A DNA stretch of 64,000 bases, taken from NCBI RefSeq assembly GCF_000220565.1, contig NZ_AFPM01000017.1:62001-126000 (forward strand), given 5' to 3'. The stretch comes from Oceanicola sp. S124. Its GTDB lineage: Bacteria; Pseudomonadota; Alphaproteobacteria; Rhodobacterales; Rhodobacteraceae. Below are positions 1,180-64,000 of this stretch, one piece after another; the first letter of the stretch is position 1, and the number at the start of each line of letters is the position of its first letter. The notes beneath the pieces were generated by a model. It was not told the origin of the DNA. It searched no databases and saw nothing but the letters and a program-made list of their open reading frames with translations. The translations under genes were made by a program, and so were the position numbers.

Positions 1180-1334
1180 ACGAACTCCTCCCCAAGATCG
1201 ACACGTATCTGCGCGTCATCGAAGGCCTCTCGGAACAGGTCGGTGGTGAGCTGGGGGAGAAGATCCAGATCGAGACGCGGCTGGTTCGCGCCTTGATCGC
1301 CAAAGCCACAGCGAAAGGGACGAAATCCAGATGA
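1176..1334 (+). CDS. Small phage protein between initiator and helicase
   Basis: This 52-residue product (MNELLPKIDTYLRVIEGLSE... KATAKGTKSR) overlaps the initiator stop (ATGA) and the helicase start (ATGA), so the three genes are coupled. It is predicted to be mostly helical and its C-terminus is basic. I do not recognise the family; the position suggests an accessory replication role, which is inference only. Confidence 0.6.
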   Translation: MNELLPKIDTYLRVIEGLSEQVGGELGEKIQIETRLVRALIAKATAKGTKSR

Positions 1335-3863: not shown

Positions 3864-4361
3864 ATGGACCAGAAGTTCCTGCAAAAGGCCCAAGAGGCAG
3901 GCTGGGTGATCGAGGCCGTTCACGAGGACTCGTGCATCGTGCGGTGCCCGGTCGACGGCTGCGGGATGCGTGCCCGGGTCCGCGCCAAGGGCGACGTGCC
4001 GCCGCGGATCAACGACCGGGTGCCGAGCAACTATCCTGTCGGAAGTTTCGATGACGCGCGCCAGATCCTGCGGGATCGCCGCGAGGACCTGGCGCTGAGC
4101 ATCGTTGAGGTGGAAGAGGCCGCCGGGCTGACCAAGGATCACTTGGCCAAGATCGAGCGCGACAGGGACGGACGGGTGCCGAACCTCGACACGTTCATCT
4201 ATTGGGCCAACGCCCTCGGTTTCGACCTGGTGCTGCGCCCAGCCGACCTGCCGAGGAAGACGCAGAGCATGATCTGCGACACGCGCGCTCTTACTGGTCG
4301 CCGGGGGCGTCGGTTTGAGAACGAGCGCCGGCGCCGGGCAGGCGGCCGAGATCCGCGCTGA
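3864..4361 (+). CDS. HTH (XRE-like) phage regulator
   Basis: The 165-residue protein has a good ribosome site (GAAAGGAAC) before ATG 3864. Residues about 27-40 hold a CxxxxC pair (CPVDGCGMRARV) that could bind zinc. Residues 73-125 form an XRE-type helix-turn-helix: VEEAAGLTKDHLAKIERDRD then NLDTFIYWANALGFDL. The C-terminus is arginine-rich. Its last 71 bases overlap the convergent gene 4291-4596. A role as a repressor or Cro-like control protein is possible but not shown. Confidence 0.7.
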   Translation: MDQKFLQKAQEAGWVIEAVHEDSCIVRCPVDGCGMRARVRAKGDVPPRINDRVPSNYPVGSFDDARQILRDRREDLALSIVEVEEAAGLTKDHLAKIERDRDGRVPNLDTFIYWANALGFDLVLRPADLPRKTQSMICDTRALTGRRGRRFENERRRRAGGRDPR

Positions 4362-4596
4362 GGCGCTTCCGCAGCGCCCATTCCTGAAGCAGCAGGATCG
4401 ACCAGGCAGGGATCATGCGCGGCTCTCTATGCCAGCGGCTCCAGTTCTGCCTGGTCATGTCCAAGGCTTCGGTCACGCGCCCGACAAGCCCGGTTCCCCC
4501 GAAGACTTCTTCGGCAAGCTCGTCCAGACGCTTCAGGCGCTCTTCGGGCGTGAGGTCGCGGATTTCCTGCGTCGACTGCATTGCCAAAGTTTCCAT
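4291..4596 (-). CDS. Small HTH-like protein, end of the leftward operon
   Basis: The 101-residue product has an acidic helical start (PEERLKRLDELAEEVFGG) and a probable helix-turn-helix at residues 37-65 (VGRVTEALDMTRQNWSRWHR). It is the last gene of the leftward regulatory operon and runs tail to tail into the gene at 3864-4361, overlapping it by 71 bases. A hairpin of the shared ACCGGAAC type lies upstream (4641-4679). A DNA-binding role is likely but the target is unknown. Confidence 0.6.
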   Translation of the reverse strand: METLAMQSTQEIRDLTPEERLKRLDELAEEVFGGTGLVGRVTEALDMTRQNWSRWHREPRMIPAWSILLLQEWALRKRLSADLGRLPGAGARSQTDAPGDQ

Positions 4597-4640
4597 GGGG
4601 TCTTACCTTCCAGACTGTTCCATCGCTGTGGGACACGCGC

Positions 4641-4679
4641 CCTCTGCCCGTTCCGGCCCCGCAAGGGGTAGGGCAGGGG
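4641..4679 (-). promoter_or_regulatory. Conserved-loop RNA hairpin, copy A (variant with inserted stem)
   Basis: On the minus-strand transcript a 9-bp stem (4641-4649 with 4671-4679, one G-U pair) closes a loop with CCGGAAC. A small CCCC-TTGC-GGGG hairpin is inserted after the A of the usual loop ACCGGAAC. CCCACAGC follows at 4625-4632, ahead of the start codon at 4596. It is the outlier of a five-member family. Confidence 0.6.
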
Positions 4680-4697
4680 CGCACCTTCATCCCTACA

Positions 4698-4946
4698 TCA
4701 CGCCGCCGCGCCTGCAAGCTCCTCCTCGTGGGCGAAATCGCCCTGCTCGACGCGATAGCCGGTCACGCCGGGAAGCGAGGCGCAGGCCTCGGGCAGGATC
4801 GAGCGCAGGGCGTCCATCGTCACGCCGGGCGCCGGGTCGCGCGGTTCCTGGCACAGCAGCACGGACAGGGCAGGGGTCGCGGTGATGGCGGCGACGTAGT
4901 GGACAGGGGACCAGCGGCCCCGGGCGAAGAGATAGAGCTTGATCAT
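4698..4946 (-). CDS. Small phage/mobile-element protein, unknown function
   Basis: The 82-residue protein starts at ATG 4946 with ribosome site AAAGGAAC eight bases upstream; the longer frame to 5051 would read through the conserved hairpin and is not used. It begins MIKLYLFARGRWSPVHYVAA and ends in an acidic tail. No family is recognised with confidence. Small proteins of this type accompany plasmid and phage modules in alphaproteobacteria. Confidence 0.65.
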   Translation of the reverse strand: MIKLYLFARGRWSPVHYVAAITATPALSVLLCQEPRDPAPGVTMDALRSILPEACASLPGVTGYRVEQGDFAHEEELAGAAA

Positions 4947-4972
4947 GGGGAGAGTTCCTTTCTCGCTGTGGT

Positions 4973-4992
4973 CGTGCGGTTCCGGTCGCACG
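4973..4992 (-). promoter_or_regulatory. Conserved-loop RNA hairpin, copy B
   Basis: A perfect 6-bp stem CGTGCG/CGCACG closes the 8-base loop ACCGGAAC (read on the minus strand). One base later comes CCACAGCGA and then the ribosome site of the gene starting at 4946. Stem sequence differs from the other copies while pairing is kept. Confidence 0.75.
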
Positions 4993-5029
4993 GGGGAGCG
5001 GCCCAGCCCGGGGCCGCTCTGCCGGTGCG

Positions 5030-5476
5030 TCAGGCGTTCAGCTTCTCGCAAAGCTGGTCGATCTCGTCGCCGTCCAGGTCGATGACGGTGCCGCCGTCGG
5101 TGGCGATGTCATGGATGGGGGCGCTGCGGTTCTCGGGGTTGCCCATGCCGCACTGCTGGTAGAAGCGAAGCGCGGCCAGGATCGTCGCAAGTTCCTGCGC
5201 CGTGAGCGCGCCGCCCCGCGTCCCTGCCTCGGTGGCCTCCGCCTCATACCGGGCGGTGATGGCATCCTGTTCCGCCTGATGCTCTGCAAAGTTTCCCATG
5301 GGTTCATCCTTCTCGCTGAGTTCGGTCAGGTCGATCCAATGCGACCCGTCGTCGCCGATGACCTCGAAAACGGTGGCGGTGGTGCCCGCTCTGGTCTGGT
5401 GTGCCCGTGCCTGGCGCGCCGCCTCTTCGGGCGTGTCCGCCGTGATGTCGATTTGCCAGCAAACGCTGAAATCCAT
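5030..5476 (-). CDS. Small phage/mobile-element protein, unknown function
   Basis: The 148-residue acidic protein starts at ATG 5476 with AGAGGAAGGGAAG upstream. The longer frame to 5614 crosses the hairpin and lacks a ribosome site. Its first half (MDFSVCWQIDITADTPEEAA ... ATVFEVIGDDGSHWIDLTEL) resembles, from memory, small proteins found on alphaproteobacterial plasmids and prophages. The second half (LTAQELATILAALRFYQQCG) is helical and ends DEIDQLCEKLNA. Function is unknown. Confidence 0.7.
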   Translation of the reverse strand: MDFSVCWQIDITADTPEEAARQARAHQTRAGTTATVFEVIGDDGSHWIDLTELSEKDEPMGNFAEHQAEQDAITARYEAEATEAGTRGGALTAQELATILAALRFYQQCGMGNPENRSAPIHDIATDGGTVIDLDGDEIDQLCEKLNA

Positions 5477-5505
5477 TGTCTTCCCTTCCTCTTGCTGTGG
5501 GTGTC

Positions 5506-5525
5506 CGAGCCGTTCCGGTGGCCCG
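5506..5525 (-). promoter_or_regulatory. Conserved-loop RNA hairpin, copy C
   Basis: On the minus strand CGGGCC pairs with GGCTCG around the loop ACCGGAAC. One pair is G-U only if the minus strand is transcribed, which supports an RNA structure in the direction of the genes. The hairpin abuts the stop codon of the gene ending at 5526; CCCACAGC and a ribosome site follow before ATG 5476. Confidence 0.75.
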
Positions 5526-5717
5526 TCATGCTGGCAGGACGATGATGCGACCCGCGCGCGCGCGCTGCTGCCTAAGCTGATCGGCGTGCTTTTCTGCTTC
5601 ATGCTCTGTGGCATAGCGCGTTGGGTGGTTCTCCTTGTCGAAAGACCACCACGGAAACCCGTGTTCCGCGTAATACGCGAGGCGTTTCGCGCTGTTTTCG
5701 TAAGCGATTACAAACAT
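5526..5717 (-). CDS. Small protein, unknown function
   Basis: The product has 63 residues from ATG 5717, chosen because GGGGA lies six bases upstream; ATG 5729 would add four residues but has no ribosome site. The sequence MFVIAYENSAKRLAYYAEHG ... WSFDKENHPTRYATEHEAEK looks like the short proteins with a periodic aromatic and charged pattern common in alphaproteobacterial phages. No function is known. It lies between hairpin copies C and D. Confidence 0.65.
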   Translation of the reverse strand: MFVIAYENSAKRLAYYAEHGFPWWSFDKENHPTRYATEHEAEKHADQLRQQRARAGRIIVLPA

Positions 5718-5745
5718 TTTAGTCCCCATTGCTGTGGTTCACTCT

Positions 5746-5765
5746 CGCCCGGTTCCGGTCGGGCG
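5746..5765 (-). promoter_or_regulatory. Conserved-loop RNA hairpin, copy D
   Basis: A perfect 6-bp stem (CGCCCG/CGGGCG) holds the loop ACCGGAAC on the minus strand. CCACAGCAA follows eight bases later, then GGGGA and the start codon at 5717. Confidence 0.75.
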
Positions 5766-5818
5766 TCGTAGGCACGGCCCACGGGATGCCGCCCCGCATG
5801 GGGGCGGTCACCGGTGCG

Positions 5819-6334
5819 TCATGCGGCGGCGGGGGTGTGGGGCGCGTTCAGCTCCTCGCAGATGGAGGAAATCACCTCGTCCATCGCGATGGCCTGACCG
5901 GTGGTGGTGCGGGCCCAGATGGTCAGCCCGGCAAAGTCCTTGTCGACCTTCTCGCCCCGGGCCTCGAGCTTGTCGGCCAGCCAGTCCGTCACGATCCAGT
6001 GTTCGAACACCTCGCGGTCGTAGGGTTCGATCTCGGACAGCTCGCAAGCCTCTTCGGCGGTGTCCGCTTCCTCGTCGTGGTCCTCGTGGATCCAGACCAC
6101 CGGGCGCGGCTTGGTGGGATCGGTGTCGGCGCCTGCGGCCCGCTTCCAGCCTTCATCAAGCGCCGCGCTCTCGTAGTCGGGAAGAGGGAAGCTCAGGGCT
6201 TGCGCCTGCTCGGTCAGCTGCTCCAGCTCGCGCACATCGTGGCCGATGCTGCCACCCACGGCGAGGGTGTGAACGAGGGAGGAAGCGAGGTGGCAGACTT
6301 CGCGGCGCACGAGATCTTCGGGGGTGATGGTCAT
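5819..6334 (-). CDS. Alphaproteobacterial mobile-element protein, unknown function
   Basis: The 171-residue acidic protein starts at ATG 6334, preceded by GAAGGAAAC; the frame extends upstream to 6412 but that part contains the hairpin. The C-terminal part (YDREVFEHWIVTDWLADKLE ... DFAGLTIWARTTTGQAI) resembles, from memory, a protein repeated on many alphaproteobacterial plasmids and integrative elements. Residues about 85-125 are very acidic. Function is unknown; it is soluble with no signal peptide. Confidence 0.7.
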   Translation of the reverse strand: MTITPEDLVRREVCHLASSLVHTLAVGGSIGHDVRELEQLTEQAQALSFPLPDYESAALDEGWKRAAGADTDPTKPRPVVWIHEDHDEEADTAEEACELSEIEPYDREVFEHWIVTDWLADKLEARGEKVDKDFAGLTIWARTTTGQAIAMDEVISSICEELNAPHTPAAA

Positions 6335-6362
6335 GGGAAAGTTTCCTTCGCTGTGGAGTTGC

Positions 6363-6382
6363 CCCGGGGTTCCGGTCCCGGG
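6363..6382 (-). promoter_or_regulatory. Conserved-loop RNA hairpin, copy E
   Basis: A 6-bp stem (CCCGGG/CCCGGG) holds the loop ACCGGAAC on the minus strand, between the antirepressor stop (6412) and the gene starting at 6334. CCACAGCGAAGGAAAC follows. Confidence 0.75.
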
Positions 6383-6411
6383 CGCAGTGGTGTTGAGGTG
6401 AGAGGCGGTCA

Positions 6412-7227
6412 TCAGATCAGCTCCCGAACGGCGGAGGGCACGACGCGGGCGAGGCGGGTCAGGCCGCGCGGGGTAACGCGCACCTGTTCAGAAACCCTCT
6501 CGCTGCCATCGGCGCGGAGCACGGTGGTCACCTTGTGCTCAAGGAAGCCGGCTACGGTCTTGCTCTGGTAGCCAAGCCAGGTGCTGCTGCCGGTGCGCTT
6601 GTAGATCCACCCGTTCTGGCTCAGCCACGCGAACAGATCCTTGGGGCGCACCTGCAGGGCCTTGGCGGCCTCGGTGATGTTCAGGCTGCCATCGGCTTGC
6701 GCAATGCGGTCCAGCTCCTCCTCGGCGTGGGAAAGCTCCTCCACGCGCTTTTCAAGCTGTTCCGCCCGCTCGCTGTAGTTCAGCAGCAGCCCGCGAAGCT
6801 GTGCGGGGTCGTTCAGGTCGATCTGCTGGGCAGGGCGGGCCGCCTCTTTCTCCTCCAGCTGCTGCCACTTATCGATGATCGCTTTGCGCAGCTTGACCTT
6901 GTAGCCCGCAATAAGTGTCACGGTGTGGTTGTAGTCCAAGCTGATTTCAGCGACGAAACCCCGGGTGTCGCGGCGCACCTTGATGCCCTCCACGCGACCA
7001 TTCCCCAAATCTGGGGTATCGATGCCCCAGCCCATCTTGTCAAAGAAGGCTTCATATTTGTCTCGGTCAGGGAGGCCAGCGTTGACCGCTTCGTCACCGT
7101 AGAGGCCCATCAACATCTTTCGAATGTCCCTAAGCACGTGATCGTGTCGCTTGCCGCAGAGGTCTGCGATTTCAAGCGAGGACATAGTGACGGGCTGACC
7201 ATCTGGCAGGTTAAGTTGGACGCTCAT
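6412..7227 (-). CDS. Phage antirepressor, Rha N-terminus and KilAC C-terminus
   Basis: The 271-residue protein begins with a Rha-type domain (SSLEIADLCGKRHDHVLRDI, residues 16-35, followed by the YNHTVTLIAGYKVKLRKAII segment at about 125). A coiled coil lies near 145-180. The KilAC domain fills 185-271: NITEAAKALQVRPKDLFAWL, then TGSSTWLGYQ and VTPRGLTRLA. These families interfere with prophage repressors or act in lytic switching. The start overlaps the upstream stop by four bases. It is the main regulatory gene of the leftward operon. Confidence 0.9.
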   Translation of the reverse strand: MSVQLNLPDGQPVTMSSLEIADLCGKRHDHVLRDIRKMLMGLYGDEAVNAGLPDRDKYEAFFDKMGWGIDTPDLGNGRVEGIKVRRDTRGFVAEISLDYNHTVTLIAGYKVKLRKAIIDKWQQLEEKEAARPAQQIDLNDPAQLRGLLLNYSERAEQLEKRVEELSHAEEELDRIAQADGSLNITEAAKALQVRPKDLFAWLSQNGWIYKRTGSSTWLGYQSKTVAGFLEHKVTTVLRADGSERVSEQVRVTPRGLTRLARVVPSAVRELI

Positions 7228-7589
7228 GCCGTGATCTCCTCCACCAGCGCGCGCAGTTCTTCGGCCAGAGCCTCGGAGCTGGGGCAGCTGCTGAGATCGT
7301 GCTGGCCGAAGTCGGTATGGGCGGCCAGCTTCAGGATGAAATCGGCCATCGACTGCGAGGGCACATCAACGATGCTGTCAGCCAGGGCGCAGACACGTTG
7401 CACGAGGGGCAGGCTCTCGGCATCGCTCAAATCGTCGGGCGTGGCCTCAAGCTCCTGCGTGGCGCTCTGCCAGCGGTGGAACATGACCTGCACGGGGCTA
7501 ACGCCCTCGGCGGCATGGGTGATTGCGGGGATGGTGAGTGCGGCAGCAGGCAGAGCCTTGATAAAGCCGCGTCTTGTCGCTACATTCAT
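7224..7589 (-). CDS. Prophage protein with twin-arginine-like signal
   Basis: The 121-residue protein starts MNVATRRGFIKALPAAALTI, with RRGFIK followed by a hydrophobic stretch and AHA at 24-26, which looks like a Tat signal peptide. The rest is acidic and helical (FHRWQSATQEL ... ALAEELRALVEEITA). From memory, similar short Tat-signal proteins occur often in Rhodobacteraceae prophages, with unknown role. An AAGGAG site precedes ATG 7589. It is coupled to the antirepressor gene. Confidence 0.75.
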   Translation of the reverse strand: MNVATRRGFIKALPAAALTIPAITHAAEGVSPVQVMFHRWQSATQELEATPDDLSDAESLPLVQRVCALADSIVDVPSQSMADFILKLAAHTDFGQHDLSSCPSSEALAEELRALVEEITA

Positions 7590-7623
7590 GAGCGATCTCC
7601 TTTGACATTGGGTGGATCATTTA

Positions 7624-7656
7624 GAGGCCGTTTGGGAGTGCAATCCCGGCGGCCTC
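7624..7656. repeat. Nested hairpin between regulator genes
   Basis: A 7-bp perfect inverted repeat GAGGCCG/CGGCCTC encloses a second one, GGGA/TCCC. There is no T-run on either side, so it is not a standard terminator. It lies between the Arc-like gene (ends 7664) and the Tat-signal gene (starts 7589) and may reduce read-through or stabilise the message. Confidence 0.5.
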
Positions 7657-7663
7657 GCGCGTT

Positions 7664-7846
7664 TCAGGTGTTCTCCTGGCTTCCCTCCTCCTTCAAAATG
7701 GCCTGCATCGTCGGTTCGAGACGGTGAAGGATCTCCCCGTTCAAGCTCCGATGATTGCGGGCGGCTTCGACCTTGAGCGCTTCTCTCCACCCTTCCGGGA
7801 GGCGGAGCATGAAGCGGCCGGCGGACGGGTCCTTAGCGGCTGCCAA
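7664..7846 (-). CDS. Arc-type ribbon-helix-helix repressor
   Basis: The 60-residue protein has the Arc pattern: strand FMLRLPEG (residues 12-19), helix WREALKVEAARNHRSLNGEI, helix LHRLEPTMQAIL. Proteins of this family bind operators as dimers of dimers through the N-terminal strand. The start is TTG 7846, with AAAGGAAC upstream; no ATG would keep the full strand. It is transcribed away from a second Arc-like gene, and the space between them holds CTAG-centred operator candidates. It likely controls both directions. Confidence 0.8.
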   Translation of the reverse strand: MAAAKDPSAGRFMLRLPEGWREALKVEAARNHRSLNGEILHRLEPTMQAILKEEGSQENT

Positions 7847-7860
7847 TGTCTGTTCCTTTC

Positions 7861-7956
7861 GCTGTGATATTCCTAGTCGGCATCATTAAGTTGGATGATG
7901 CTGATGGTGATGTCAAGTCGGAACTAGTTGCTAGTTGGAATATCTGCGGACTAGAT
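7861..7956. promoter_or_regulatory. Operator cluster between divergent repressor genes
   Basis: CTAG, usually rare in bacterial DNA, occurs four times in 82 bp (7873, 7924, 7931, 7951). Two form the palindrome AACTAG-TTG-CTAGTT (7922-7936). CTAGTCGG and CTAGTTGG are direct repeats, and GATATTCC (7866-7873) is the inverted partner of GGAATATC (7937-7944). TTGACA read leftward (7911-7916) could be a -35 box. These are the expected sites for the two Arc-like proteins. Confidence 0.65.
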
Positions 7957-7962
7957 GAGCGA

Positions 7963-8304
7963 ATGGCAGATAGAACCCCGTACCCGAGCGAGACGCAGGA
8001 GCGCTTTATTGTGCGCCTTCCTGATGGAATGCGTGACCGCATCAGATCCGCCGCCGAGGCCAATAACCGCTCTATGAACGCGGAGATCGTGGCCACGCTG
8101 GAAGAGAAGTACCCGGCCCCTGTGGTTGAGTACGACCCCGAGAGGGTTGCCGAGTTGCTGGAGCGGATGCAGGCTGTCCTGGAGAGCTACAGTGAGCCCG
8201 GAGCTAGCCAAGAGGACACGTGGGTGAAGGCGGCGGAGTTTGCTGCGCTCAGGGACGAGGTCAGGCAGTACCTACCGAGGAAGCAAGGGGAGACGAGAGA
8301 ATGA
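7963..8304 (+). CDS. Arc-type ribbon-helix-helix protein with C-terminal extension
   Basis: The 113-residue protein starts at ATG 7963; the frame upstream to 7846 crosses the operator region and is not used. The Arc motif is at residues 10-50: RFIVRLPDGMRDRIRSAAEA then NNRSMNAEIVATLEEKYP. The remaining half is acidic and helical, perhaps for oligomerisation. It diverges from a shorter Arc-like gene, so the pair may form the immunity switch of the phage. Its stop overlaps the next start (ATGA). Confidence 0.8.
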   Translation: MADRTPYPSETQERFIVRLPDGMRDRIRSAAEANNRSMNAEIVATLEEKYPAPVVEYDPERVAELLERMQAVLESYSEPGASQEDTWVKAAEFAALRDEVRQYLPRKQGETRE

Positions 8305-61767: not shown

Positions 61768-64000
61768 ATGGCGGTACTTTTGACGCAAGCCGGCGTGCGC
61801 GCTGGGGCTTCCGGTTCGGCGCGTCTGCTGACGACCACTCTTCTGGCAACTGGCATCCTTAGCATCGCCGTGCAGCCCGCACTGGCCCAGAGCGTTTCGG
61901 GCGATGTGACGCGGGTGATCAACGGCGTGGTTGTCGAAGACCAGTCCATCTCGCTGAACGGCAACGGACAAAGCGGCTTCGAAGTGATGGACGGCGTCGT
62001 CACCGTCGATGCGGGCGGCGAGACCTTCAGCAACTTCTCCACCCAGGGTGGTGACGGTTCGGGCGGCGGTGCCGGCCTTGGCGGCGTGTTCTTCGTCAAC
62101 GAAGGCGCGACCCTGGTGATCCGAGATGCCAATTTCACCAACAACCGGGCCGTCGGCGGCGACGGTGGCGGCGGCGGCAGCGTTGAGGTGCGCAACGCGT
62201 CCCTGGCGATCGTCGACAAGGAAGCGACCACCTCGACCAACCTGGTCTCGGGCTACACCTACGACATCGTCCAGGACGGCTCGAACTTCTCGCTGACCCG
62301 TGTGACCTACGACGAGAACGACCCGGTCTTCTCGGTGCGCGATGGCGTGACCTTCGGGGCGGCCACCGCCGGGGCCGGCGGCACCGTCGCCACCAGCTCC
62401 AATGCCAAGGTGACCGGGGCGGACGAGACGGGCTTCAGCTTCGACGGCGGGCTCGACGTTTCCGACTCGATCAGCTCTTCGATGATCTTCACCAGCGACA
62501 GCTGGATCGCCGGGACCACCGGCGCGATGTATTTCTACGAAGGCAGCCAGGTCCGCATCGGCACCGAGAACATGTCCGTGGCCGACCGTGGAGCGCTGCA
62601 GACCGGCCTGCAGATCGTCGGCAACGGCGTTCCTGCGGGGACCTACATCGAGAGCGTGGTCAAGGACGGCGACGGCAATGTGACCGAGATCATCCTGAAC
62701 CAGGCGGTCGATCCCGACGCCATGGGCGGCAGCTTCAACATCTTCTCGCCGCCGCTGCTCATCGGTTCGGTCTTCGCGCAGGACAGCGCCAACACGCTGT
62801 CCTTCGGCGCAGGCAACGTGCCGCCCTCCTACGAAGTGGGGATGCGGATCTCGGGCGAGGGCGTTTCCGGCAATGTCACCATCCAGAGCATTGACCGCAG
62901 CACCGGGGTCGTCACCCTGTCGGGCAACGTCCCGAGCGAGCTGCTGAGCCTCAGCGCGCTGAAGCCCGGCTTCGTCGAGGGGTCGAACGAGATCTACCTG
63001 CCGACCACCAACCACGGCCTGTCGGTGGGTGACACGGTCTATGGCGCGGGCATCCCCGCGGGAACCACGGTCGTGTCCATCGACGGCGACCGGGTGATCC
63101 TCAGCCAGAACATCTCGGGCGAGATGGATGTGCTCTATTCGTCCAACGTCACGGTCTCCGGCACCACGGTGACGGTGAATTCGGGGGTGGACGGGGTCAA
63201 AATCGGCCAGATCGTCGAGGGCGACGGCGTGCCCGCGGGCACCGTGGTGACCGCGGTCGACCCGGTCACCGGCAGCGTCACCCTGAGCAGTGCCATCAGC
63301 GGCACCCCCGGCTCTCTGCGTTTCGTCAGCGAAAGCGCCATGGGCGGCGGCATGAACGGTCGTGAGGTCTCGGGCAACGTGGCAATCGCCGCCGGCGGTC
63401 CGGACGGATCGCTGCCGCTGGACGGTGAAGGCGTCGACGGTCGCGACGGCCTGCACGCGGCGGATTCGACCACCGGTTTCGGTGGCATCGGCGGCTCTGG
63501 CGGCTCTGGCTCGGACGGTCTGGCGACCAACCCGATGCTCGTCGCGGATATCGCGGCCACGGGCGCCGCGATCGCTGCGGCGGTGGCGGATGCGGTGGCA
63601 TCGAGCATGCCCGACCCCTATCCCGACCCGGCCAACTCGGCGTCCAGCACGGCCAATGCCATCTCGCTTGGCATCACCCTGGCCGCCCAGACCACGCAGC
63701 TGGTGAACTGGCAGATCGCCTCGAGCGAGGGCACGCTGGGCACCGGCGGTGACGGCGGTGACGGTGGTGATGGCGGCAACGGCGGCGACTTCTTCGGCGG
63801 CGGTTCCGGCGGCGCCGGTGGTGCAGGCGGCACCTCGGCCGGCAACGCGACCTTCGGCAGCGGCAATGGCGGCGCGGGCGGTTCTGGCGGCAACGGCGGC
63901 TTCGGCGCGGGCGGCGGCGGCGGTGGCCAGCCGGCCAATGCGGCGCAATCGGCGTCCGGGTCCGGTGGCCACGGCGGCTTCGGCGCTGGCGACGGCTCTA
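61768..64000 (+). CDS. Giant glycine-rich repeat surface protein (autotransporter-like), partial
   Basis: The frame is open for 744 codons from ATG 61768 to the window end. It starts MAVLLTQAGVRAGASGSARL and TTLLATGILSIAVQPALAQ, a long signal peptide cut after ALA. Residues about 15-110 after it are Gly-rich beta strand. Four repeats of the pattern GxVSGxGIPAGTxVxxID...VTLSxxxS lie at about 280-520 (for example YGAGIPAGTTVVSIDGDRVI and EGDGVPAGTVVTAVDPVTGS). The end is a low-complexity Gly tract (GGDGGDGGDGGNGGDFF). Barrel domain, if present, is beyond the window. Probably an adhesin. Confidence 0.85.
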   Translation, partial: MAVLLTQAGVRAGASGSARLLTTTLLATGILSIAVQPALAQSVSGDVTRVINGVVVEDQSISLNGNGQSGFEVMDGVVTVDAGGETFSNFSTQGGDGSGGGAGLGGVFFVNEGATLVIRDANFTNNRAVGGDGGGGGSVEVRNASLAIVDKEATTSTNLVSGYTYDIVQDGSNFSLTRVTYDENDPVFSVRDGVTFGAATAGAGGTVATSSNAKVTGADETGFSFDGGLDVSDSISSSMIFTSDSWIAGTTGAMYFYEGSQVRIGTENMSVADRGALQTGLQIVGNGVPAGTYIESVVKDGDGNVTEIILNQAVDPDAMGGSFNIFSPPLLIGSVFAQDSANTLSFGAGNVPPSYEVGMRISGEGVSGNVTIQSIDRSTGVVTLSGNVPSELLSLSALKPGFVEGSNEIYLPTTNHGLSVGDTVYGAGIPAGTTVVSIDGDRVILSQNISGEMDVLYSSNVTVSGTTVTVNSGVDGVKIGQIVEGDGVPAGTVVTAVDPVTGSVTLSSAISGTPGSLRFVSESAMGGGMNGREVSGNVAIAAGGPDGSLPLDGEGVDGRDGLHAADSTTGFGGIGGSGGSGSDGLATNPMLVADIAATGAAIAAAVADAVASSMPDPYPDPANSASSTANAISLGITLAAQTTQLVNWQIASSEGTLGTGGDGGDGGDGGNGGDFFGGGSGGAGGAGGTSAGNATFGSGNGGAGGSGGNGGFGAGGGGGGQPANAAQSASGSGGHGGFGAGDGS

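Follow-up and report, generated by a model that had tools for sequence, protein, structure and literature searches.

Start-associated RNA hairpins with covarying stems and a shared loop in three prophages of one genus

A family of small hairpins, designated R, was found just upstream of gene starts in a prophage of Oceanicola sp. S124 that reaches into the window analyzed here (the whole stretch of 64,000 nucleotides [nt] from positions 62,001 to 126,000 of NZ_AFPM01000017.1). The stems of R were free in sequence and covaried, whereas the loop was constant within this prophage and differed by the same single base in every copy found in a related one. This pattern supports R as a selected RNA structure. 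The explanation that we favor, with middling confidence and on the evidence of sequence, is that R may be an RNA site at gene starts that is recognized by a trans-acting factor specific to the lineage and that most likely controls the translation of interchangeable accessory genes.

R hairpins at the window locus

The window belongs to contig C323, on which its first kilobases (kb) and approximately 13 kb further left belong to the prophage, with an integrase-like gene (L128 7078-8340, by eye) and genes for a DnaB-like helicase, terminase, and a Rha/KilAC antirepressor as hallmarks; IMG/VR also has this region as a virus contig, L130, with 100% identity along 14,100 bases. A leftward block, flanked by the replication genes and terminase, begins with an Arc-like gene (7664-7846) and closes with gene E (4291-4596), and R was present before its last five genes consecutively, copies and genes being lettered D, C, B, A, and E in transcription order. 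Four plain copies on the minus strand (4973-4992, 5506-5525, 5746-5765, and 6363-6382) had differing 6-base-pair (bp) stems around a common loop, ACCGGAAC, and all 24 base pairs formed. A box, CCACAGC(G/A)A, followed after 1, 5, 8, and 6 nt in the copies starting at 4973, 5506, 5746, and 6363, respectively, and then a Shine-Dalgarno (SD)-like stretch and ATG. The fifth copy, with CCGGAAC and an inner hairpin, was a longer hairpin at 4637-4682. For the positions and sequences of the plain copies, a preliminary description made from the letters alone proved accurate, except that the sole G-U pair, which it had placed in its copy C, lies in copy B (5506-5525). A sixth copy, F, was found 3.5 kb beyond the window in another leftward early block (L128:16514-16533, that is, C323:58514-58533), where it precedes a Tad3-like (anti-Thoeris) gene; 6/6 copies of this prophage are upstream of a gene start and in the orientation of that gene. 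The features of the block, which include a second hairpin element, K, are as follows (aa, amino acids).

6363..6382, minus strand: R hairpin D, CCCGGG-ACCGGAAC-CCCGGG, ahead of gene D
6348..6356, minus strand: box CCACAGCGA of copy D
5819..6334, minus strand: gene D, 171 aa, in the slot between linkers D and C; without an equivalent gene in G019 or G007
5718..5821, minus strand: linker C, comprising stop codon, K element, R hairpin, and CCACAGC; kept in three prophages between nonhomologous genes
5772..5824, minus strand: K element with outer stem, core GGTG...CATCC at 5784-5812
5746..5765, minus strand: R hairpin C, CGCCCG-ACCGGAAC-CGGGCG
5729..5737, minus strand: box CCACAGCAA of copy C
5526..5717, minus strand: gene C, 63 aa, without family match; other genes occupy this slot in the related prophages of G019 and G007
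5506..5525, minus strand: R hairpin B, CGGGCC-ACCGGAAC-GGCTCG, with one G-U
5492..5500, minus strand: box CCACAGCAA of copy B
5030..5476, minus strand: gene B, 148 aa, of unknown function; 95% identical in G019 and 43% in G007
4981..5035, minus strand: K-like element of linker A (28.3 bits), its 3' arm overlapping the 5' arm of R hairpin A
4973..4992, minus strand: R hairpin A, CGTGCG-ACCGGAAC-CGCACG
4963..4971, minus strand: box CCACAGCGA of copy A
4698..4946, minus strand: gene A, 82 aa, of unknown function; 80% identical in G007
4637..4682, minus strand: R hairpin E, elaborated, with a 12-bp stem with one bulge and an inner CCCC-TTGC-GGGG hairpin, then CCGGAAC
4623..4631, minus strand: box CCACAGCGA of copy E
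4291..4596, minus strand: gene E, 101 aa, predicted to be all helical (predicted local distance difference test [pLDDT], 79); 68% identical in G007

Stem covariation was assessed in an ungapped alignment of 14 distinct hairpins, namely, A, B, C, D, and F of the window's prophage, G of G019, and X1, X2, X3, X4, C, B, A, and F of G007; this set excluded the elaborated E copies and any G019 copy that merely repeated a window hairpin. Standard pairs were formed in 81 of 84 cells, compared with 54.5% in shuffles (0 of 500 as high), and the three unpaired cells fell singly in G007 C, window F, and G019 G. Both-sided changes were present at all six stem pairs, the covariation score was 0.978 versus 0.208 in shuffles (0/500), and pairing dropped to at most 52.4% in partner-sliding controls, in agreement with the earlier claim that the covarying stems indicate a selected RNA. 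Weaker measures were the count of pairs with both-sided changes, which was reached by 79 of 500 shuffles, and that of further pair types, reached by 6 of 500. For 19 of 22 copies, the minimum-energy fold of the linker contained R, its loop unpaired (with the four inner pairs only in G019 G), the exceptions being linker A of the window, linker A of G019, and G007 C.

The loop 8-mer alone was unremarkable, with 5 occurrences of ACCGGAAC in the window versus 1.84 expected (4 of 100 shuffles reached 5). With a 6-bp stem around an 8-nt gap at 420 of 127,960 window positions (0.33%), however, stems at four of these five occurrences would be expected by chance with a probability of approximately 6e-10, a post hoc figure, as the loop was picked after being seen. 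Independently of that choice, the maximum number of distinct stems per one 8-nt loop in 30 first-order random windows was 3 (once) and otherwise 1 or 2, versus 4 in the real window. CCACAGCRA occurred 8 times in the window versus 1.27 expected (0 of 100 shuffles reached 8), and five of the eight belonged to R copies. The box CCACAGCGA is also found before the DnaB-like gene (1306-1314, plus strand), where the upstream coding frame ends and no hairpin is present. No group of at least three start-associated hairpins with one loop and different stems was detected in 120 viral loci (1.08 Mb) that had themselves been retrieved by a loose form of the R pattern; the same scan of another locus set recovered the R loop, the forms of it in G007, and, in both L250 and L256, a loop reading CTGCGG that belongs to the K element (its complement, CCGCAG, was recovered from the opposite strand of L250).

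Loop, box, and linkers in related prophages

Among the 22 genomes of a genus sample, three matched a model of R that tolerates other loops (R1): that of the window, G007 (Pseudooceanicola endophyticus), and G019. The search for further copies in related elements that had been suggested at the outset thus succeeded, and the copies found numbered six in the window's prophage, seven in G019, and nine in G007. The loop core read CCGGAAC in 6/6 and 7/7 copies of the first two, respectively, and CCGAAAC in 9/9 copies of G007. At five equivalent places (A, B, C, E, and F, judged by neighboring genes or linker similarity), the G of the window's prophage was an A in G007, and at B, E, and F one further stem pair each was changed on both sides (compensated; by eye). 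Every plain copy in the window's prophage and in G019 began its loop with A; of the eight plain copies in G007, five did so and three began with T. In the scan for plain copies the variable core position was left free and the first base was A or T, the other core positions being fixed, as were the cores with which the E copies were found; constancy at those other positions is therefore partly built in, and a copy with another core would be missed. Model R1 gave no further convincing copy in the scanned stretches. The box read CCACAGC behind the copies of the window's prophage and G019, and in G007 it read CCACAGA (four copies), CCACAAA (two), CCACAAC (one), and GCACAGA (F), with none behind X1.

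Stems that vary independently while one loop letter is changed throughout are what a shared trans-acting partner would produce, and gene conversion is unlikely, since the flanks of the copies differ. The common regulator proposed in the preliminary description gains indirect support from this concerted change. That the partner is itself an RNA, antisense or small, which would pair with both loop and CCACA box, strikes us as distinctly improbable: loop and box both differ between lineages, as base-pairing partners would, and the loop is unpaired in most predicted folds, but no candidate is known, no search having been made for a partner with complementary letters. A self-pairing version, a kissing-loop dimer through CCGG, was excluded by the G007 loop, CCGAAAC, which lacks self-complementarity. 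Interpretations of the loop as a T-loop or GNRA loop were discarded after inspection by eye.

Linkers C, D, and F, each with its R, were conserved where the genes behind them were not. Identity of linker C to its G019 counterpart was 19 to 20 of 20, with 7 to 12 of 20 in the genes on both sides; compared with G007, it was 19, 19, 19, and 15 of 20, and 6 to 12 outside the linker. Random places (4,000 draws) gave 5 to 14 of 20, with at least 13 in 0.8% and 15 never. BLAST homology around linker C begins at the stop codon (5821) and stops at the box (5731). Linker D was conserved in G019 as far as the SD, and linker F as far as AGATGGAGG, behind which G019 has an unrelated 148-aa gene (L198 5154-5597); G007 retains hairpin F, but no gene resembling F follows it. 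When genes D, C, and F were compared directly with the stretches of G019 and G007 by tblastn, the best E value was 0.03 (C, 19 residues); genes A, B, and E were present in both. Copy F is followed in all three prophages by a second complementary arm pair, GGGCGCCCGC/GCGGGCGCCC (L128 16474-16508, minus strand; L200 17334-17366, plus strand), with CCACAGC between the arms in the window's prophage and G019.

Because linkers D, C, and F are kept between the window and G019 while the genes behind them are unrelated, gene plus hairpin is not the moving unit, contrary to what had been suggested earlier; judged by its sequence surroundings, R tracks operon position and not the gene. Conserved linkers and nonhomologous slot genes indicate that genes were exchanged between fixed linkers, presumably by homologous recombination within them. 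The replacement of genes between conserved linkers would also be expected of a DNA-level recombination site (an attC-like folded strand) that moves gene cassettes, the arrangement first proposed. We regard such a site as very improbable, since a linker that stays while genes change is the opposite of what a cassette with a site of its own would show, all copies in the window's prophage are oriented as the gene behind them, and homologous recombination between linkers would suffice.

The gene behind F (L128 15915-16448, minus strand; C323:57915-58448) matched Pfam PF25185, Tad3, a Type I Thoeris inhibitor (E = 1.4e-35), and the solved Tad3 structure 9b7d (E = 6e-8). Behind the first G019 copy is a gene with a P22_AR_N domain (antirepressor type), and behind G007 X4 is one with DUF932. 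One gene in slot C of G007 is similar to genes annotated as DNA methyltransferases in other phages; by eye, a gene in slot C of G019, without an NCBIfam match, resembles it. Family searches gave no informative match for genes A to E; gene D had a partial PHROG match of unknown function (E = 1.1e-6) and shared 50.3% identity with a protein from Rhizobium phage RHph_N65, and the model of gene E had no PDB fold match at E ≤ 0.001. From these few genes we infer that the marked genes are accessory and partly anti-defense cargo, and R might serve as a marker for host-takeover or anti-defense genes such as the Tad3-like, P22_AR_N, and methyltransferase-like ones. Three operator-like CCTTAGG copies (L146 11620-11695) stand before the G019 antirepressor-type gene and its R.

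Other searches delimited the distribution of R. A two-peptide-pattern search with gene E returned two loci, one in G019 (contig C56; JAAFAB010000011.1, L175) and one in P. endophyticus CBS1P-1 (NZ_JAHIAB010000010.1, L176); the G007 prophage is also the IMG/VR contig behind L154. In a family sample of 394 genomes of 393 genera, the window's own included, R1 under strict filters, by which weak matches are lost, matched 7 genomes at E ≤ 0.01, strongly only its own. The six others had single weak matches (E = 0.002 to 0.009), which were read as chance because none, by eye, had a ribosome-binding site (RBS) and start placed as in real copies. A concatenated-protein search of this sample found 1/394 genomes, its own, with genes A to E in no other, a weak negative because at most three candidates per genome were scored among those shown. 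The same search in phages had its best matches, among those listed, in the Tad3-like part of the query, and in plasmids it gave partial matches in nine records. The loose pattern ACCGGAAC-gap-CACAGC was found in at least 120 stretches of viral contigs. The stem scan detected a 6-bp stem around the loop in just one of these, L046, followed after a few bases by AGG and ATG; with two G-U pairs, CACAGC overlapping the stem, and a single copy, it was read as chance. Stricter patterns gave seven stretches each, in which stem scans detected the hairpin in L130 (the window's own prophage), in L203 (that of G007), and in no other.

A putative trans-acting factor and its alternatives

In the mechanism that we favor, R would act in cis as an RNA element between the genes of a polycistronic phage transcript, ahead of the SD region of the next gene. 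A phage-lineage-specific trans-acting factor, probably a phage-encoded RNA-binding protein, would recognize the loop by its constant letters, (A or U)CCGRAAC, whatever those of the stem, and its binding would set ribosome loading, and hence translation, of all marked accessory genes jointly. The location of R upstream of the SD, on the transcribed strand, gene after gene, and with identity only in loop and box, fits the site of one factor at ribosome loading. One step further, and in our judgment unlikely, the linkers could be gene-independent expression modules (R at the start, sometimes K at the stop) into which accessory or anti-defense genes are swapped, the loop letters serving as a lineage password such that the RNA-binding factor of the resident phage expresses only genes behind the right loop.

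Several observations weigh against control by such a factor. A hairpin had been claimed before each small gene of the operon; this held for the last five genes, but the first three of the block (7664-7846, 7224-7589, and 6412-7227) have no R in front. In G007, X1 (which is followed by a second R) and F (the gene of which is gone) are not directly before an RBS, and copy C has one broken pair. In the minimum-energy fold of linker A in the window and G019, the 5' arm of R is taken up by pairing with the K-like element. No partner protein was identified, and models of A (two-sequence, poor; pLDDT, 59) and E suggest no RNA-binding fold. Finally, R is carried by only three prophages of one genus, and since two of these share near-identical linkers, few independent events are represented.

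Processing or stability of the mRNA is a rather unlikely alternative, in which an RNase would cut the polycistronic RNA at each hairpin into single-gene messages with a 5' hairpin and K, where present, would protect the upstream 3' end. The hairpins are intergenic, linker C and the G007 linkers X3 and C combine R ahead of the start codon with a hairpin behind the stop codon, and cleavage of early mRNA near starts is known in phages, e.g., by T4 RegB (PMC3014915). A general host RNase, however, would leave the concerted one-base loop difference among prophages of one genus unexplained, and linkers D and E gave no K match.

We consider improbable that R copies are processive antitermination sites (put- or nut-like), at which RNA polymerase would be modified upon transcription of the hairpin. 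Two R copies in tandem head the G007 operon (L200:7096-7140) behind a promoter-like TTGACG-17-TACCTT (by eye), and R presumably resembles put sites. Still, R occurs mostly once per gene and not once per operon, and promoter prediction gave nothing at threshold. In lambda-type nut sites, boxA (CGCTCTTTA) lies just upstream of the hairpin; with one mismatch allowed, CGCTCTTTA was at chance level in the window (6 matches versus 5.89 expected), with none within 3 kb of an R copy. Among 10 early-region proteins, no PHROG match to an N-like antiterminator was obtained at E ≤ 0.01, N-like proteins being fast to diverge. Intrinsic terminators were rejected (4 terminator-like sites versus 3.2 expected).

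Closest in kind to R are the start-associated repeats SAS and ESAS of cluster K mycobacteriophages, as described in PMC3203893 and PMC12699233. These repeats are directly upstream of the starts of a subset of nonstructural genes, typically in one orientation and with varied gene families behind them; the ESAS consensus varies between subclusters, and a role in translation was proposed, the function being unknown when they were described in 2011 (PMC3203893). R shares this position and orientation in 6/6 copies of the window's prophage, with G007 X1 and F as exceptions in the relatives. SAS is a fixed 13-bp sequence, and ESAS has sequence-conserved 17-bp arms with a variable spacer, for which RNA pairing was generally unsupported according to the authors (PMC3203893), whereas in R the arms are free and covarying and the loop is fixed. 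With at most two mismatches, the SAS sequence GGGATAGGAGCCC had one window match (12121) versus 2.46 expected and none at R genes. Since the defining sequence differs and SAS/ESAS are without RNA-pairing support in that account, R is not counted as a member of this group, although SAS/ESAS are nearest to it. In PMC12699233, from 2025, experimental verification of start-associated repeats is still called for; because the RNA structure of R strongly covaries and its two lineage loop versions differ by one base, the question of a trans-acting factor is directly testable by a one-base change. T4 RegA likewise is one phage factor acting at the starts of many early genes, but its sites are A+U rich and unstructured (PMC3014915).

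In Rfam 15, no gathering-score match was obtained in the window, and a permissive search of 4400-8000 gave two subthreshold matches (E = 1.2 and 2.1), consistent with the earlier remark that no named family fits. No description of R was found in the literature searched, most subscription journals being outside its reach. Phage RNA hairpin operators (lambda boxB/N, the MS2 coat operator, and the T4 gp43 operator) usually have one or two sites per genome. R is like them in being a small stem-loop near an RBS or promoter, with identity in the loop and specificity differing between related phages, and unlike them in its six to nine copies and in having no known protein. The CsrA/RsmA site is ANGGA in a hairpin loop; the loops of R read ACCGGAAC and (A/T)CCGAAAC, without ANGGA.

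The K element and other observations

K is a GGUG-x-stem-loop-stem-CAUCC hairpin with an outer stem, located between the stop codon and R in linker C of the window and linkers X3 and C of G007. K elements were found at the following places.

Window 5772-5824, minus strand
L154 3212-3265 and 4423-4475
L190 9001-9053
L224, L250, L255, and others

Weaker matches were obtained in linker A of the window (28.3 bits, as listed above), A and B of G019 (27.1 and 23.6), and B of G007 (19.7). K was also present in Rhodobacter phage RcapNL and, again between the stop of one phage gene and the start of another, in many viral contigs, some with at least three copies, and a model of K (R2) matched 8 of 295 family genomes, its own included, at E ≤ 0.001; K is more widespread than R and possibly a larger finding. 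With a 7-bp inner stem, the K pattern had 39 distinct matches, 33 of which had an SD-like stretch and a start within 110 nt (at pattern level, with frames unchecked), and under looser criteria all loci together yielded 75 distinct matches (8 in background loci) versus 9 in reversed sequence. In 39 K sequences picked by eye, 94.5% of 584 cells paired, both-sided changes were present at 10 of 15 pairs, and the covariation score was 0.478 versus 0.144 in shuffles (0/500); one outer pair failed in 26 of the 39, and the invariant GGUG and CAUCC columns were partly built in by the search pattern. Thirteen K loci had no Rfam 15 match except two tRNAs. In one viral contig (L219 3400-4170, minus strand), a different constant box, CACTCAACCA, stands before three RBSs, two of them behind K elements.

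The terminase large subunit of the G019 prophage (L146 7068-9536, minus strand) is 822 aa, compared with 516 in the window, and is without a Pfam match as a whole protein; by eye, it contains an inserted intein-like stretch that starts with Cys and ends before Ser.

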